Positions 45,779 to 56,326 of a stretch of DNA of 64,000 nt are shown in pieces (the stretch's first letter is position 1; each line of letters starts with the position of its first letter). This stretch comes from Methylacidiphilales bacterium. GTDB lineage: Bacteria > Verrucomicrobiota > Verrucomicrobiia > Methylacidiphilales > UBA1321. Location of the stretch: positions 1 to 64,000 of the forward strand of contig JAJSLK010000061.1 in NCBI GenBank assembly GCA_021272165.1, read 5' to 3'. The position numbers and the translations under genes were made by a program. The notes beneath the pieces were generated by a model, which was given only the letters and a program-made list of their open reading frames with translations, ran no database searches and was not told the DNA's origin.

Positions 45779-45988
45779 TCAAGGCTTGCCCAGCAAGTCT
45801 TCCCACGAACAGCGAAAGGCAACAGCCAAACGCCTGACAATTTCAACCCTAGGCTCCTTCAGGCGGAAGGACTCAATTTTTTGCAAGGTACGGGAAGTAA
45901 TGGCTGCCCGGCCGGCACATACTTCCTGCGTCCATTTCCGCGCCATCCTTAACCGATAAACGCGTTGCCCAAATTCCTTCGGGTTCAT
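45779..45988 (-). CDS. XRE-family HTH regulator (short)
   Basis: 69 residues from ATG 45988 (46018 adds ten). A single helix-turn-helix domain: FGQRVYRLRMARKWTQEVCA, GRAAITSRTLQKIES, then RVEIVRRLAVAFRCSWEDLL. It stands divergent from two small genes. A perfect 20-bp palindrome lies 31 bp upstream of its ATG, ideal for a dimeric regulator of this size and suggesting self-control of the divergent unit, as in controller proteins of mobile modules. Confidence 0.75.
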   Translation of the reverse strand: MNPKEFGQRVYRLRMARKWTQEVCAGRAAITSRTLQKIESFRLKEPRVEIVRRLAVAFRCSWEDLLGKP

Positions 45989-46019
45989 CGTTAGAGTATC
46001 TGAGGAACCCAGAATCATG

Positions 46020-46275: not shown

Positions 46276-46454
46276 ACCGCGCATGGGCCGATAGCCTGAT
46301 ACCCGGCATTCCTTCCATTCAGGGGCTAAGCGTTGATTCCGGGACTCTTTATTTTGCCGGAATTTTGGTCGCGGCTTCGCTGGGAAGCGCCGTGATCGTG
46401 GTTCTTGTTCTGTCCTGGAAAAGAAAGAGCGGCCGAGGGCGTTACCGGAAGTGA
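46272..46454 (+). CDS. small single-helix membrane protein
   Basis: 60 residues. One membrane helix (LYFAGILVAASLGSAVIVVL then VLSW) with a strongly basic C-terminus (KRKSGRGRYRK), so the tail is likely cytoplasmic. Coupled to the previous gene by ATGA. No family is recognised. Size and shape would suit a membrane toxin or holin-like partner, but nothing proves this. Confidence 0.45.
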   Translation: MNRAWADSLIPGIPSIQGLSVDSGTLYFAGILVAASLGSAVIVVLVLSWKRKSGRGRYRK

Positions 46455-46563
46455 TACTGAAAGAATAGCTTCCACGAAGCAAGCTATGCAAACTTGGTCA
46501 CCTAAAGAAATCTGATTCGTGATTGATATCTTTGTATCATGATGTCCGGATAAGTAATCTATT

Positions 46564-46598: not shown

Positions 46599-46820
46599 AT
46601 GGATACGGTAGCTCTACCCCTTATCCGCGGGGGCGAGACGCATACGGCCGCCGCCGCACGAGTAATTCAGACGATTATCCGTGATTATCGCGGGGATACC
46701 AACGCATATTTTAATGCCGTGATCGAGGCACAGAAGAAGCGAAGGGTAAACTCCGAATCTCGGGCAATTTGTTTAAATCAGCTTCAAAAATTCGCTGCAA
46801 ATTCTGCATCAAAGCATTAG
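46599..46820 (+). CDS. small helical protein upstream of the ClpP-like gene
   Basis: 73 residues, soluble, helical and basic (THTAAAARVIQTIIRDYRGD, FNAVIEAQKKRRVNSESRAI). No family is recognised. The stop is 12 nt before the next start, so the two genes form a unit driven by the promoter at 46564. It may be an adaptor, substrate or regulator of the protease-like protein. Confidence 0.55.
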   Translation: MDTVALPLIRGGETHTAAAARVIQTIIRDYRGDTNAYFNAVIEAQKKRRVNSESRAICLNQLQKFAANSASKH

Positions 46821-46832
46821 AGTTCGCACCTG

Positions 46833-48002
46833 ATGCCAGCGAATAAGGACTACAGGGAAAATCCCTCTCGTTGCGTCTATCTCACTGGACCTATCAACCA
46901 AGACTTGGTCAATAGGTTGACGTCGAAGATCAATGAGTTGCGTTGCGCGAGCAGCGATCCAATTACAGTTTACATTGATAGCCCTGGCGGATCGACGTCC
47001 CATGCTCATACCATTCGCAGACTGATCAAAGCACCGAATCCCGATGGCGTAAGGTGCAGATTGATTGCAGTTGTTACTGGCAGCGCTGCGAGCGCTGCGG
47101 CTGATTTTCTGGCCTTGGCCGATTACGCTTATGCGTTTGGTCACACTGATATCCTATTCCACGGAGTCAGACAAGACCCTGATGCTTTTCTAACTGTTGA
47201 GGACGCGCATCTGTTGGCGACCAATTTACAGGAATCCAATGAGTTTTACGCCATGCGCCTCGCGCGCTCAGCTTTCGCACGATTCATCCTAAGAATTTCG
47301 CAGCTCCAAGATGAGTTTCTTAAATATCGAAATACTACCGGTGAGCACAGCGAAGCGCTGGATGGTCTGCTGGGAGCCCTTAGAGCAAAGTTAACGCCTG
47401 CCAATCGAGAAGCTGTTAAATCTGCTCACCAGAAACAAAAAATAATCGAGGAGCTGAATGTATCCGTTAATAAATCCATTAGGAAAAAGAAGAAGTTCCA
47501 AAATTTCTCACAAAGTCAAATGGAAGTCCTCATCTTCGAGGCGATCTTGCGCTATAAGCAGGCCAAGCACGCTAAAGACAGAGTCGAATGGCTTCTAAGT
47601 AAGTACGGAATCGAGGAAATTACCCAGGATTTTCGACTCCTTGCGGATTTCTTTTGGGGAAAACCCAAACGCGATATGGCCGAGCTAATGGACATGTACG
47701 GTGAACTTCTCCTTTCGGATGAATTGCAGAAAGCATACAAGGAATTGAAGGAAACCGAAGAAAACAGAACTAAATGGCTTTATCAGCATTCCAATAAGCC
47801 AATTTTGCCACTCTGGTACTTCATGGTTTCTCTTTGTCGTATTTTGCAAACCGCAGATTTTAGCTTCGATCCCCGCGAAGCTTATTGGCTGGGGTTTGTA
47901 GATGAAGTGCCGGGGAGTAATCTGCCCAACATGCGGCAGATGCTGGAATCAGAAGCTCCTGCTCCCGATGCCTCTGCCACCGGCGCTCCACAGCAGCCTT
48001 AG
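46833..48002 (+). CDS. ClpP-fold serine protease with a large insertion
   Basis: 389 residues. Residues 14-115 follow the ClpP fold: VYLTGPINQDLVNRLTSKIN, ITVYIDSPGGSTSHAHTI (oxyanion loop), VVTGSAASAAADFLALADYA with Ser87 at the nucleophile position, and TDILFHGVR with His110. The end of the fold reappears at residues 340-356 as ADFSFDPREAYWLGFVDEV, where Asp342 fits the third triad residue (compare DxxxxxxEAxxxGLVD of ClpP). Between His and Asp lie about 230 residues instead of about 50: a charged, coiled-coil-prone helical insertion (KQKIIEELNVSVNKSIRKKK). A short disordered tail ends the protein. GC is lower than in flanking genes. Role unknown; signs are of a transferred module. Confidence 0.7.
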   Translation: MPANKDYRENPSRCVYLTGPINQDLVNRLTSKINELRCASSDPITVYIDSPGGSTSHAHTIRRLIKAPNPDGVRCRLIAVVTGSAASAAADFLALADYAYAFGHTDILFHGVRQDPDAFLTVEDAHLLATNLQESNEFYAMRLARSAFARFILRISQLQDEFLKYRNTTGEHSEALDGLLGALRAKLTPANREAVKSAHQKQKIIEELNVSVNKSIRKKKKFQNFSQSQMEVLIFEAILRYKQAKHAKDRVEWLLSKYGIEEITQDFRLLADFFWGKPKRDMAELMDMYGELLLSDELQKAYKELKETEENRTKWLYQHSNKPILPLWYFMVSLCRILQTADFSFDPREAYWLGFVDEVPGSNLPNMRQMLESEAPAPDASATGAPQQP

Positions 48003-48307
48003 CGATCTTTTTCCGTTTTGCGGCGCTTAGGGTTTTGCTCTAGCCTTCCAGCGCCACAGTAGCAGGGTTCTTTCAGGCTCCGTCGAAGATTGGGCAGTAG
48101 TAATTTGGGCGATGTTCGCCGCTGTTTGATTCAGATCTTTCTTCGGCATGGTTGGACGGTATCCAGCTTAAGGACATGGGATTTTCAAACTGTACCACTA
48201 CCCGGTAACGGGCTGGCTTGCCAAGGGGTGGGGGCGGCGATAACTTTAGCATCCCCTTTTCCGTGTTTTCCGATAGGATATGGGGCTCCTCTCCAGTTCT
48301 CCGGCTT
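48003..48307 (+). other. 305-bp non-coding region before secA
   Basis: No gene is recognised. It contains short hairpins, GGCGA-TGT-TCGCC near 48108-48121 and CCCG-GTAA-CGGG near 48202-48213 (a GNRA-type loop). A leader or promoter for secA is expected here, but I see no convincing -35/-10 pair. Confidence 0.5.
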
Positions 48308-52386: not shown

Positions 52387-53151
52387 CTAAAGCCCGAGTT
52401 CGTCCGCGGAAGGGACGCGGTACGCGATGGGCTGGCCGAGGAGCGCGCGGTCAAGGAGGGAGAATTCGAGCGCGGTGTCGGGGCCGAGTTTTTCCTTGAG
52501 CGGGGCGATATCGGTCGGGACGGCGGAGAAGTCGACACCCTGGTCTTTGGTGCCGCGGAGCTTGGCCCAGACGAGGAGGCGCAGGGCGGAATAAGCGGCG
52601 GCCTTGAGATCGTGGCGCTCGAGCGAGGGCTTGGGATTTTGCGAGATCCATTCCTTGGTCACGTGGCGCGGGCCGCTGATGACCGTGCCGTGGGTGAGCT
52701 CGGTGCCGGCCTGGGCGGTGAAGGAGCCGTCGTAGTCGAGGCGCCAGAGGGCGTCATCGGCGGGCTTGGGGCCGAGCTCGGCGAGAATGCCGCGGAAGAG
52801 GAGGGGCGCGGCGAAGATCTGCTCGAAGGCGGCCTTGAGGGCGGGAGCGAGGTTGTAGCTGACGAGGCGGCGCGCGCTGACGTCGGCGGGCGAACGGGTG
52901 AAGCCGTCGACATGGGCGGCATCGATGACGGTCTGGCGGACTTTTTCGATATCGGCGGGATGACCGAGGGTGCCGAGGGCGAGGTGATCGTAAATTTCGA
53001 AGAGTTTCGGAGTCGAGGTTTTGATCGTGAGTAGGAGGATGCCGGGCTCGGTGCTGAGGGCGACGACAGGCAGGCCGGGCGAGAGCTGGTCCTCAATGTA
53101 CTCGCGGCGATTGGTGATCGCCTCCAACCAACGATAGGGTTCCTCGGTCAT
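52387..53151 (-). CDS. prcA: proteasome alpha subunit
   Basis: 254 residues. Forms the outer rings of the 20S core and gates entry. Family blocks: an N-terminal helix region, LLLTIKTSTPKLFEIYDHLA then LGTLGHPADIEKVRQTVID (compare the [20 protein letters not shown] of actinobacterial PrcA), VSARRLVSYNLAPALKAAFE, LFRGILAELG and LWRLDYDGSFT. It has no N-terminal Thr, as expected for alpha. It starts 6 nt after ohr and is last in the proteasome operon, followed by the 34-bp inverted repeat. Confidence 0.88.
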   Translation of the reverse strand: MTEEPYRWLEAITNRREYIEDQLSPGLPVVALSTEPGILLLTIKTSTPKLFEIYDHLALGTLGHPADIEKVRQTVIDAAHVDGFTRSPADVSARRLVSYNLAPALKAAFEQIFAAPLLFRGILAELGPKPADDALWRLDYDGSFTAQAGTELTHGTVISGPRHVTKEWISQNPKPSLERHDLKAAAYSALRLLVWAKLRGTKDQGVDFSAVPTDIAPLKEKLGPDTALEFSLLDRALLGQPIAYRVPSADELGL

Positions 53152-53157
53152 GGCGCG

Positions 53158-53574
53158 TCAGGCGACGTTCAGCTTCACCGGCACGTTGCCTTTGATGGCG
53201 CGGGAATAGGGGCAAACGGTATGGGCCGTCTTGATCAGCTCCTCGAGTTGCGCGGGGTCGATGCCGGGGGCCTTGGCGGTCAGCTCGACTTCCAACTGGA
53301 AGTTGTTGTCCTCGGTCTGGCCGATGGCGACCTTGGCGGTGATGCTGAAGTCGGGCGGGAGATGGATTTTCTTGAGGCCGGCGACGTACTGGAGGGCGCT
53401 GCCGAAACAGGCGGAATAGCCTTGGGCGAAGAGGTGCTCAGGGGTAATGCCCTCGCCCTTGCCGCCGAGGGCCTTCATGAGCGAGAACTTGACGTCGAGT
53501 TTGCCGTCGGAGGTCTGGCCCTTGCCGTCGCGGCCGCCGGTGGTGGTTGCGGAAATGGTATCGAGAACTTTCAT
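53158..53574 (-). CDS. ohr: organic hydroperoxide resistance protein (Ohr/OsmC family)
   Basis: 138 residues, normal Ohr length. Thiol peroxidase that reduces organic hydroperoxides using two reactive cysteines: Cys56 in AQGYSACFGSAL and Cys121 in AHTVCPYSRAIKGN, both Ohr rather than OsmC in spacing. It begins 20 nt after prcB and ends 6 nt before prcA, so it is inside the proteasome operon and expressed with it. No OhrR regulator is seen nearby. Confidence 0.9.
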   Translation of the reverse strand: MKVLDTISATTTGGRDGKGQTSDGKLDVKFSLMKALGGKGEGITPEHLFAQGYSACFGSALQYVAGLKKIHLPPDFSITAKVAIGQTEDNNFQLEVELTAKAPGIDPAQLEELIKTAHTVCPYSRAIKGNVPVKLNVA

Positions 53575-53594
53575 GGAATTCCTGGGGTTGAAGG

Positions 53595-54413
53595 TTACTT
53601 GTAAGAGGCTTCGAGGGAGGTAAAGCTTTCGCGGAGAGTCTCGACAGAGACGGAACGAAGGCCGTCACGGGTGAGGAACTTGACCTGCGGAAAAACGTGG
53701 GAGCGGCGATCGACGCCGCCGGTGGCACTGTCGGACTCGGCGGCGACGTCGAGGAGCTGGAGGGCGAGCTGGACGGCTTCCTTTTCGTCGCGCTGCGAGG
53801 TGGGGCGGCCGCTCCAGCGGTTGATCCACTGGAGGACGCTGCGTGCCGCGGGCGAACCGGAACCGGAGACGGCGAAGTCGACGGCCTGGAACTGGGCGCC
53901 GAGGGCGTCGTAGAAATAGAGGCTAGGTTCGGGCTGATGGTGGCTGTCGCGGGCGGTGAGGATAGGGACGACCGCGCCGACGCCCTGGAGGGTCATGGGG
54001 AGGTTGTCCTTGATGAGCTTGCCGAGGGCGCGGACCTTGGCGCTGAGGCTGAGGGGCTGGAGCTGGCTGCGGCGGTAATACTGGAAGGAGGTCTGGAGGG
54101 TGCGGGCCATCTCGAAGGCGACGGCGGGCGAGCCGGCGATGGCGATGATGGTGTCACGGTCGAGCTCGATGACCTTGTCGGCGCGGTCATACATGATGAT
54201 GTTGCCGGCGGTGGCGCGGCGATCGCCGGCGATGAGGACGCCGTCCTTGTAATGGAAGGAGAGGACGGTGGTGGCCTCAGTCTGGGGCGGCAGGGCGCCG
54301 GTGCGGAAAATTTCGGTTGGGACGGGAGAATTCCCGCTACGACGGAGCAGTTCTGTGAAGTCCCCGGTTCCGGTGAATTCCGGCCCGCCGGGGCGAGGTC
54401 CAGAAAAGGTCAT
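53595..54413 (-). CDS. prcB: proteasome beta subunit (catalytic)
   Basis: 272 residues including a 47-residue propeptide removed by autocleavage. Mature start is EA^TTVLSFHYKDGVLIAGDR with Thr48 as the nucleophile; Asp64 (in AGDRR) and Lys80 (in DRADKVIEL) fit the catalytic Asp17 and Lys33. SGSGSPAARSVLQW and AVQLALQLLDVAAESDSATG then GVDRRS are family blocks. Cleavage is after Ala instead of the common Gly. It starts within the ubact stop (ATGA), so the modifier and the protease are translationally coupled. Confidence 0.93.
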   Translation of the reverse strand: MTFSGPRPGGPEFTGTGDFTELLRRSGNSPVPTEIFRTGALPPQTEATTVLSFHYKDGVLIAGDRRATAGNIIMYDRADKVIELDRDTIIAIAGSPAVAFEMARTLQTSFQYYRRSQLQPLSLSAKVRALGKLIKDNLPMTLQGVGAVVPILTARDSHHQPEPSLYFYDALGAQFQAVDFAVSGSGSPAARSVLQWINRWSGRPTSQRDEKEAVQLALQLLDVAAESDSATGGVDRRSHVFPQVKFLTRDGLRSVSVETLRESFTSLEASYK

Positions 54414-54586
54414 TGGCCGGTGCGTTGGCGGTAGCGTTTGGCCTGGTCGGGATCGACCTTGCGCATGCGCTTGAGGAGGTCGTCGACGTTGGGGCGGTCG
54501 ACTTTGGGAGCGGCGGGGCCACCGCCGGGAGCTGGGGACTCGGGACCACCACCGCCAGGGCGCGTCTTTTGGTTTTGATCGGGCAT
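54410..54586 (-). CDS. ubact: UBact, Pup-like protein modifier
   Basis: 58 residues. MPDQNQKTRPGGGG, a Pro/Gly-rich disordered half, then PNVDDLLKRMRKVDPDQAKR and the end YRQRTGQ. The disordered N-terminus, a helix with DLLKRMRKVD, and the C-terminal R-T-G-Q fit UBact, the Pup relative described in Gram-negative bacteria with an R[TS]G[EQ] end. The terminal Gln must be deamidated to Glu by Dop before ligation to lysines. It overlaps prcB by 4 nt. It lies 198 nt after dop, a gap filled by a large repeat structure. Confidence 0.93.
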   Translation of the reverse strand: MPDQNQKTRPGGGGPESPAPGGGPAAPKVDRPNVDDLLKRMRKVDPDQAKRYRQRTGQ

Positions 54587-54658
54587 AGAATTAATTTAGG
54601 TGCTGTTTCGCTTAGTTCAACCGTTGGCAGTCAGGTTGCAAGTTCTATTCCAGGGAGG

Positions 54659-54778
54659 CATGACGGAATGGCCAAATTTTCCAAATTAACGGAATACGCC
54701 AGAGAGTAAGAAAACCACATCTGCTTTCCATTTCCATTCAAATTCCGTCCATTTGGCTCATTTGGTAATTCCGTCATG
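54659..54778 (-). promoter_or_regulatory. large cruciform-like inverted repeat between dop and ubact
   Basis: Arms 54659-54695 and 54742-54778 (37 nt each, 30 positions paired) with a 46-nt loop. Each arm is built from two mirror-ordered units of ACGGAAT and CCAAAT (left: ACGGAAT..CCAAAT..CCAAAT..ACGGAAT). It begins 6 nt after the dop stop. It could be a partial terminator, an RNase site, or a mobile MITE-like repeat. Confidence 0.8.
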
Positions 54779-54784
54779 GTTTCT

Positions 54785-56326
54785 CTAAACCGGCTTCAGA
54801 TTGAGTTCTCGGATGAGGTCGTGGATGGTTTTCGATTTGTCCATGGCGATAATCATTTCCTCGAGGCGCATGCCGGGGAAGGCCTGGCTCATGTCGAGGC
54901 GATACATCTGGTCGCCGACCTTGAAGACAAGGTTGTCCCACTGGGCGGTTTTCATTTCGCGGGCGAATTTGAGGACGCTGCGGCCGCGGAGGTAGGCGCG
55001 GGAGGAGGCGGGCGGATGCTGGACGGCGTGGATGATCTCGGCCTCGCCGATGAGGGTTTTTATCTGGCCCGAGTTTTCGAGCGCGAAGAAGAGGCCCTCA
55101 TCGTGCTTGAGGAGATGGTATTCGAGGTCGAGGCTCTGGAGCCACGAGTTATCCCACTCGAGGTTTTCCTGGACGCGGAAAGCGTCAAGGAGCTGGCGCT
55201 TGGCGGCCCAGTCGAGGCGGTCGTGCAGCGTGAGGGGACGGCTTTCGAGGGCTTCGACGGTTTCCTTCCAGTCGGCCAAGACTTGGCGTTTCTCGGGATG
55301 CTCGAGATCGACGCGCTTTTCGACCCAGCGAATGAATTCGTACTGGAGGTCGACGGCGCGGATCGTTTTGCCATTGGCGAGGGGGACGAGCCATTGAAAG
55401 GTTTCGTCGCGGGAAATCTGGCGGTGGGCTTCGAGCGGGTCGGCGAGCGACCACCAGTCGGGCGCGCCCTCGTGTTCAAGTGACTCGAGCATCAACGCGG
55501 TGGTGCCGATCTTGAGCCAGATGGCGAACTGGGAAAGATTCGAGTCGCCGATGATGACGTGGAAGCGGCGGAAGCGGGTGGGATCGGCGTGCGGCTCGTC
55601 GCGGGTATTGATAAGCGGGCGGCGATTCATCGTGTCGATACTGACGAGTTCGGAGAAGAAATCGGCGCGCTGGGAGATCTGGAAGCCGCCGGTGCCGCCG
55701 GAGGTGTTTTCGCATTCCCAGCCGACCTTGCCAGCACCGGCGTAGAGCTGGCGGGCGACGAGGAACGGCGTCATGGCCTGGACGAGGCGGTCCCAGGGAA
55801 TGATGCGGGGGATGAGGTAATTGTCGTGGCAGCCGTAAGAATGGCCGCGGAAATCGGTGTTGTTCTTGAATAGCTTGACGGTGCGGCTGCCGCGACGGGT
55901 GACCTGACGCGCGCATTCCTCGAGGAGGCGTTCGCCGGCCTTGTCCTGCGAGATGAGGTCGAGGAGCGTGGCGCACTCGGGAGTGGAATATTCGGGATGG
56001 GCGTGGTCGTTGTAGAAACGGGCGCCGTTGCGGAGGACGAGATCGCTCTTGATCTCCTGGAAGGTGAGTTCGCGGGCGCTGTCCTGCGAGTAGTAGCCGG
56101 CCTCGTCGGTGTCCTGAAGGAGTTCGCGAACGCGGAACCCGCGGGCATCGCGATGGGGGTCCTCGGTGGCATAATCCCAGAGATTGGCGACGCCATGCTG
56201 CGCGGCGGAGCGGACAAGGGAGATCGATTCCTCGACGACGTCGGCCTCGGGGTCTTCCATGACCGTGATGCCGAGCTCCGTTTCAAGACCAAAGCAGATT
56301 GGCCAGGGGGGCGGATGGGTATGCAT
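54785..56326 (-). CDS. dop: Dop, deamidase/depupylase for the Pup-like modifier
   Basis: 513 residues, carboxylate-amine/glutamine-synthetase-like fold. FGLETELGITV opens the ATP site. The Dop type, as opposed to the PafA ligase, is shown by RDARGF at 60-65 and NGARFYNDHAHPEYSTPE at 100-117, with Asp107 as the nucleophile-site Asp (PafA has a different block here). KLFKNNTDFRGHSYGCHDNY and LINTRDEPHAD are further family blocks. It converts the RTGQ end to RTGE and cleaves the isopeptide bond from targets. It ends just before the cruciform repeat. PafA is not in the window. Confidence 0.93.
   Translation of the reverse strand: MHTHPPPWPICFGLETELGITVMEDPEADVVEESISLVRSAAQHGVANLWDYATEDPHRDARGFRVRELLQDTDEAGYYSQDSARELTFQEIKSDLVLRNGARFYNDHAHPEYSTPECATLLDLISQDKAGERLLEECARQVTRRGSRTVKLFKNNTDFRGHSYGCHDNYLIPRIIPWDRLVQAMTPFLVARQLYAGAGKVGWECENTSGGTGGFQISQRADFFSELVSIDTMNRRPLINTRDEPHADPTRFRRFHVIIGDSNLSQFAIWLKIGTTALMLESLEHEGAPDWWSLADPLEAHRQISRDETFQWLVPLANGKTIRAVDLQYEFIRWVEKRVDLEHPEKRQVLADWKETVEALESRPLTLHDRLDWAAKRQLLDAFRVQENLEWDNSWLQSLDLEYHLLKHDEGLFFALENSGQIKTLIGEAEIIHAVQHPPASSRAYLRGRSVLKFAREMKTAQWDNLVFKVGDQMYRLDMSQAFPGMRLEEMIIAMDKSKTIHDLIRELNLKPV

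Follow-up and report, generated by a model that had tools for sequence, protein, structure and literature searches.

The open reading frame at 46833..48002 on the plus strand of the window (the whole 64-kb stretch of DNA that was analysed) has an ATG start and encodes 389 aa. The product is a putative ClpP-fold serine protease, presumably catalytic through Ser87, His110 and an acidic residue at position 342, whose fold is split by an inserted helical domain. Together with a small gene just upstream it forms a conserved two-gene module, and this module is carried as cargo by transposons and phages, a mobility that goes beyond what an earlier note on this DNA had claimed. We put the probability at roughly 0.55 that the pair is a mobile conflict module, toxin-antitoxin-like and/or anti-phage, in which a ClpP-fold effector is regulated by its small partner. 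Within that reading we infer the protease activity, the binding of the partner, the trigger and the defence or toxin outcome.

ClpP is the textbook chambered protease, to which an ATPase must feed substrate, and in the E. coli enzyme about 49 residues lie between His and Asp. The proposal that the window protein has a ClpP fold was borne out by Pfam, where CLP_protease (PF00574) matched residues 12-110 (2.2e-10; 41.2 bits against a cut-off of 20.2), by hhalign against ClpP over residues 12-140 (E 3.3e-18), by the PDB, where ClpP gave the best relatives both by sequence and by fold, and by the AlphaFold2 model described below. The protein scored below the curated cut-offs of NCBIfam, both for the ClpP equivalog TIGR00493 (17.7 bits against 308.6) and for the best ClpP subfamily (42.6 against 228). 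The first part of the core, delimited by Pfam and hhalign, covers residues 12-145 (46866..47267, +) and contains Ser87 (codon 47091-47093, +) and His110 (codon 47160-47162, +), which occupy the ClpP catalytic positions and are unchanged in all ten aligned homologues. The second part, placed by hhalign register, covers residues 341-361 (47853..47915, +) and contains Asp342 (codon 47856-47858, +). Profile comparison aligned DFSFDPREAYWLGFVDEV with the ClpP C-terminus and put residue 342 in the register of the catalytic Asp/Asn, a match that is short and weak when taken alone (22 columns; E 0.0045 with residues 300-389 and 0.013 with residues 112-389). The Ser and His of the triad originally suggested (Ser87/His110/Asp342) therefore stand, as does the register of residue 342, but the third member is Asp in five and Glu in the other five of the ten homologues and its register depends on those 22 columns. 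When the ORF was compared with its orthologue in the same-genus genome G005 (73% identical), the differences at codon positions 1/2/3 were 83/53/242. This excess at third positions shows that the ORF is coding and under purifying selection.

The window protein thus resembles ClpP (MEROPS S14, PF00574) in its core fold, its Ser-His-acid positions and its C-terminal EA-x-x-x-G-x-VD block. However, it has no N-terminal axial-loop segment and carries about 180 extra residues between the His and the acid, and its family differs further in having either Asp or Glu at the third position, in being mobile and in having a small partner gene. The core begins at about residue 12, which aligns to residue 52 of the ClpP encoded by a separate gene of the same genome (L002). 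Without the axial-loop segment the protease may act independently of a Clp ATPase. An alternative is that the protein is a housekeeping-type ClpP/ClpR paralogue that joins the host Clp rings and works with ClpX, ClpA or ClpC. The Pfam score above cut-off and the PDB matches in sequence and fold are consistent with that explanation, but the segment that forms the axial loops in ClpP is missing, the handle region is interrupted, the presence of the gene is sporadic and mobile, and the genome has its separate ClpP-like gene. We consider such a paralogue improbable.

All ten homologues have 222-239 residues between His110 and position 342, so the handle is not uninterrupted as it is in ClpP, and this common spacing makes the insertion a family trait. 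The AlphaFold2 model of the full-length protein, which was built from nine aligned sequences (pLDDT 83.7, pTM 0.82), contains a handle helix (alpha-E, H122-156), eight more helices and then a strand at 343-345, and it places the ClpP strand-helix after residue 342 with a local pLDDT of about 94. When the stretch 146-341 was folded alone, the result was all helix (pLDDT 87.1, pTM 0.80), and the inserted domain was accordingly delimited at about residues 146-340 (47268..47852, +; about 195 residues). The insertion had been described as long, helical and charged; its helical nature and its position between His and Asp, following the handle helix, agree with the models, but these predict a domain able to fold by itself and not just a charged linker. 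A Foldseek search for it gave no PDB fold match (best E 1.1), and it had nothing credible in the PDB by profile, and no Pfam family that was matched by more than one member. It also diverges faster than the rest of the protein, with a mean pairwise identity of 21%, whereas the core reaches 46% and the C-terminal block 52%. The earlier note had further suggested that the insertion binds a partner. This idea gains indirect support from the conserved small gene directly upstream and from the faster divergence of the insertion, while the binding itself is presumptive. Large insertion sequences are described for the plastid ClpP1 of Chlamydomonas (Huang et al. 1994; Majeran et al. 2005; both as cited in PMC6681370). 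That protein is likewise a ClpP with a large translated insertion, but it is a plastid housekeeping protease outside any mobile module, and the likeness considered here is the presence of an insertion.

Full-length homologues with the insertion came from other Verrucomicrobiota genomes and from IMG/VR contigs. The search for relatives that share the insertion, and for their neighbours, was fruitful: all ten aligned homologues have the insertion, and most have a small gene upstream. Single-sequence scans of genome and viral contigs returned no homologue and profiles alone succeeded. Among plasmid and phage records, all that turned up was ordinary short ClpPs and partial matches. One natural member of 247 aa in G815 (L084:5831-6574) lacks residues of about 129-270, including the handle helix, and still has the small gene upstream; it may represent a minimal form of the family or a copy in decay.

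The small partner gene of the window lies at 46599..46820 (+), encodes 73 aa with the motif RVIQTIIRDYRGDTNAYFNAV and ends 12 nt before the ATG of the ClpP-like gene. With a leave-one-out HMM it was the best of 1114 translated window segments (E 1e-7), and the same procedure recovered the small gene significantly in six of the eight seed loci. It was also found out of sample at L072 (1.6e-10), L080 (4.1e-7) and L075 (6.9e-5); three other non-seed loci (L069, L071 and L074) gave it as well, but these are close to a seed. Among the loci outside profile building, the profile missed L070, L079 and L073, although L070 and L079 nevertheless have a small ORF at the expected place. In most family members a short ORF stops a few bases upstream of the protease start. 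Differences from the G005 orthologue of the small gene fall 22/27/48 over the codon positions, again with a third-position bias. The small protein had no match in Pfam, PHROG or NCBIfam. Extra weak matches of its profile in other genomes were rejected as chance or as pieces of unrelated larger proteins. The pair shares with type II toxin-antitoxin systems the layout of a two-gene unit on mobile DNA with the small gene upstream. Against the conflict-module reading, the small gene was unrecognisable in G025, G326 and G872 and weakly recognisable in L029, L030, L070 and L079.

Mobility is seen in three Verrucomicrobiota relatives (G005, G318 and G908), in which intact IS1-family transposons have the order transposase (IS1-type, DDE), small gene, ClpP-like gene and a further gene named KGG, all between inverted repeats. 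These elements are flanked by exact 8-bp target duplications (TCTTATTC in G005, TCAGCTCG in G318 and CATTTCTG in G908), and their inverted ends begin GGYASTGG (end sequence GGYASTGGNTCAGTTTSAA). The transposases are 71-73% identical across the elements, compared with 34-39% for the proteases. For the G005 transposase the NCBIfam IS1 model gave 61 bits, below its cut-off of 100, but the protein passed Pfam DDE_Tnp_IS1 (37.5 against 24.1). The G908 element has an extra gene between the transposase and the end that matches Kinase-PolyVal (8.9e-9; L083:8282-8995). Several family members lie outside any recognisable element, which counts against the conflict-module reading.

KGG was named after its LGGLKGGKARA block. 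It encodes a small basic protein of about 70-107 aa (LGGLKGGKARA...IA..AA..RW) that belongs to no Pfam or NCBIfam family, and the gene is convergent to the protease gene (e.g. L014:9145-9354). In the window a degraded, frameshifted KGG gene occupies 47960..48149 (-) and reads MPKKDLNQTAANIAQITTAQ... then KNPATVALEG*SKTLSAAKRKKIAKAAVERRW, with its 3' end antisense to the 3' end of the ClpP-like gene. When the 64 kb were searched with an HMM built from other loci, its two frames ranked first and second (E 6e-4 and 1e-3). A right terminal inverted repeat, GGTAGTGGTACAGTTTGAA, follows at 48184..48202 (-), in the same position relative to KGG as in the intact elements. It is the sole window match to the end sequence at three or fewer mismatches, and 10 simulated windows gave 0, 0 and 0.1 chance matches at up to 1, 2 and 3 mismatches. 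Exact searches of the window for the left end and the duplication, and a search for the transposase, found none of them, and the insertion has neither a direct repeat nor a tRNA at its flanks. Since the right inverted repeat and the frameshifted KGG are kept while the transposase and left end are missing, the window most likely holds a decayed copy of the transposon in which both cargo genes are intact. The loss of the transposase and left end and the broken KGG would also fit a dying remnant that no longer functions, whatever the rest of the family does. However, both module genes are intact and their substitutions relative to the orthologue are biased to third positions, which makes a functionless remnant very improbable.

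Some weaker traces were seen nearby and elsewhere in the genome. At 46439-46465 of the window, at a GC boundary, there is a weak TIR-like stretch (10/19) preceded by GCGTTACC, which is nearly the reverse complement of CGGTAACG, the sequence that follows the right end; an inversion may have left this trace, or it may have arisen by chance. The window's own genome has three further single ends of this transposon type (G000:C2:868, G000:C27:18757 and G000:C49:17362), of which the one on C27 adjoins a 248-aa ORF.

The distribution of the module is sporadic: 7 of 384 genomes of the class have it, and in two orders the counts are 9 of 213 genomes and 3 of 240. Its GC content is 48% compared with 60% for the window, a foreign composition. 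In the window it sits between pilT and secA (both named from sequence alone), and in the same-genus genomes G005 and G006 the pilT-secA gap is about 1.1-1.2 kb and has no module, while G005 has its own copy on another contig. In G007 the gap has a different 3.5-kb filling (L061:2900-6476), so this site looks variable within the genus. An XRE-type HTH gene (45779-46018, -; HTH_31, 1.7e-7) lies within the gap in the window, to the left of the module. Farther along, at 52387-56326 (-), genes resembling 20S proteasome subunits and a Pup ligase/Dop-type protein were recognised by eye.

The pair is also found in phages and in a probable prophage. It adjoins phage capsid and baseplate genes in L029 (IMG/VR), and in L037 (IMG/VR), a contig with terminase and portal genes, its neighbours are a CI repressor on one side and a GH46 gene on the other. 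In G166 it is flanked by replication-type genes and by an endolysin. In L029 a gene with a SocA/Panacea antitoxin domain (L029:5765-6532) adjoins the ClpP-like gene. These contexts raise the possibility that the family derives from a phage prohead (head-maturation) protease: capsid or portal genes are nearby in two phage-type loci, PHROG head-maturation proteases match weakly (6.7e-8), and PF04586 was not found in these phage-type contigs, so that a maturation protease is missing from them. However, the L037 gene is between the repressor and the lysis-type GH46 gene, with the terminase following some 5.5 kb later, the gene order in L037 and L067 does not put the gene between portal and capsid, and chromosomal and transposon copies have no head genes beside them. 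This derivation is disfavoured and seems highly improbable.

The cargo of sister elements bears on function. When the end sequence was used to search 22 genomes, four more complete elements with exact 8-bp duplications were found, three in G318 and one in G007. By PADLOC the G318 elements carry a PD-Lambda-2_B-like gene, RmrA with RmrT, and RmrA with an unassigned protein, and the G007 element carries SoFic. In IMG/VR, where the end sequence was the sole criterion of the scan, 14 elements were recovered. The duplications of twelve agree at all 8 bases and those of two at 7 of 8, and a few short elements may have been paired by chance. Among the cargo of these elements are three PD-Lambda-2_B-like genes, a HigB-like toxin, and a PemK toxin together with a HipA-like kinase. 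KGG was found within 19 of 21 elements and outside in none. KGG-bearing IS1-type elements with GGYASTGGNTCAGTTTSAA ends and 8-bp duplications were seen at L210, L213, L233, L144 and L115-L118. These IS1-type elements, in genomes and IMG/VR contigs alike, often carry defence or toxin-antitoxin genes. Other IMG/VR elements carry KGG or unassigned genes alone, which counts against a defence reading, and transposon cargo need not be defence.

Known systems provide partial precedents. Like the tIS, which are insertion sequences with passenger genes (PMC7986276), these elements combine a transposase, inverted ends, a short target duplication and passenger genes, but they differ in sharing a near-universal KGG and in repeatedly carrying defence or toxin-antitoxin modules, and no comparable KGG-bearing IS1 group was found in the literature searched. 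Tn3-family transposons carry toxin-antitoxin pairs (PMC7157771), a precedent for exchangeable two-gene modules within one transposon family; the transposon family is different, and the part of that source covered does not mention a ClpP-fold member. RmrAT, SoFic and PD-Lambda-2 (PADLOC) are on elements with the same ends and a KGG gene, but their effectors are unrelated and the ClpP-like pair has no PADLOC counterpart, PADLOC giving no match for either the window protein or the L037 protein. The literature covered, mostly without subscription journals, held no description of the ClpP-like protein or of named defence cargo in such elements.

A different explanation is that the protein is a regulatory protease of the element itself, which would cleave a repressor or the small partner and so switch on transposition or prophage genes, with no toxin or defence role. 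The equivalent slot of several sister elements holds an HTH-M78 (ImmA/IrrE) protein, and COG2856 proteins have been linked to Xre repressor cleavage, with ImmA regulating ICEBs1 (PMC2701414). The proximity of the gene to the CI-type repressor in phage L037 points the same way. However, no repressor is conserved with the pair, and much of the cargo of sister elements belongs by its matches to named families of defence or toxin-antitoxin genes, so that a purely regulatory role appears unlikely.

The conflict-module reading is preferred. The order of small gene and then enzyme, on mobile DNA and in a slot otherwise filled by toxin-antitoxin or defence genes, suggests that the partner restrains an effector. 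Additionally, sister copies carry known anti-phage and toxin-antitoxin genes, which suggests that the pair is probably an unrecognised defence or toxin module. In such a module the small protein would bind the protease, with the fast-evolving inserted domain as the probable contact, and would keep it inactive while bound. Infection, loss of the partner or a similar trigger would then free the protease, which would cut host or phage proteins. The more specific proposal, that this is a new anti-phage or toxin-antitoxin class with a ClpP-fold effector that may work without an AAA+ unfoldase and a small helical partner that acts on the inserted domain, spread by defence-carrying IS1-type transposons, is tentative, and we hold it at somewhat less than even odds.

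If true, this would mean that the ClpP fold has been redeployed as a stand-alone conflict effector, without the docking segment and with an extra domain and a dedicated partner. The transposon ends also offer a route to new defence systems, in that gene pairs lying between GGYASTGGNTCAGTTTSAA ends next to KGG are candidates for them. The wider finding is a mobile ClpP-fold module together with a family of IS1-type elements that bear KGG and carry defence genes.
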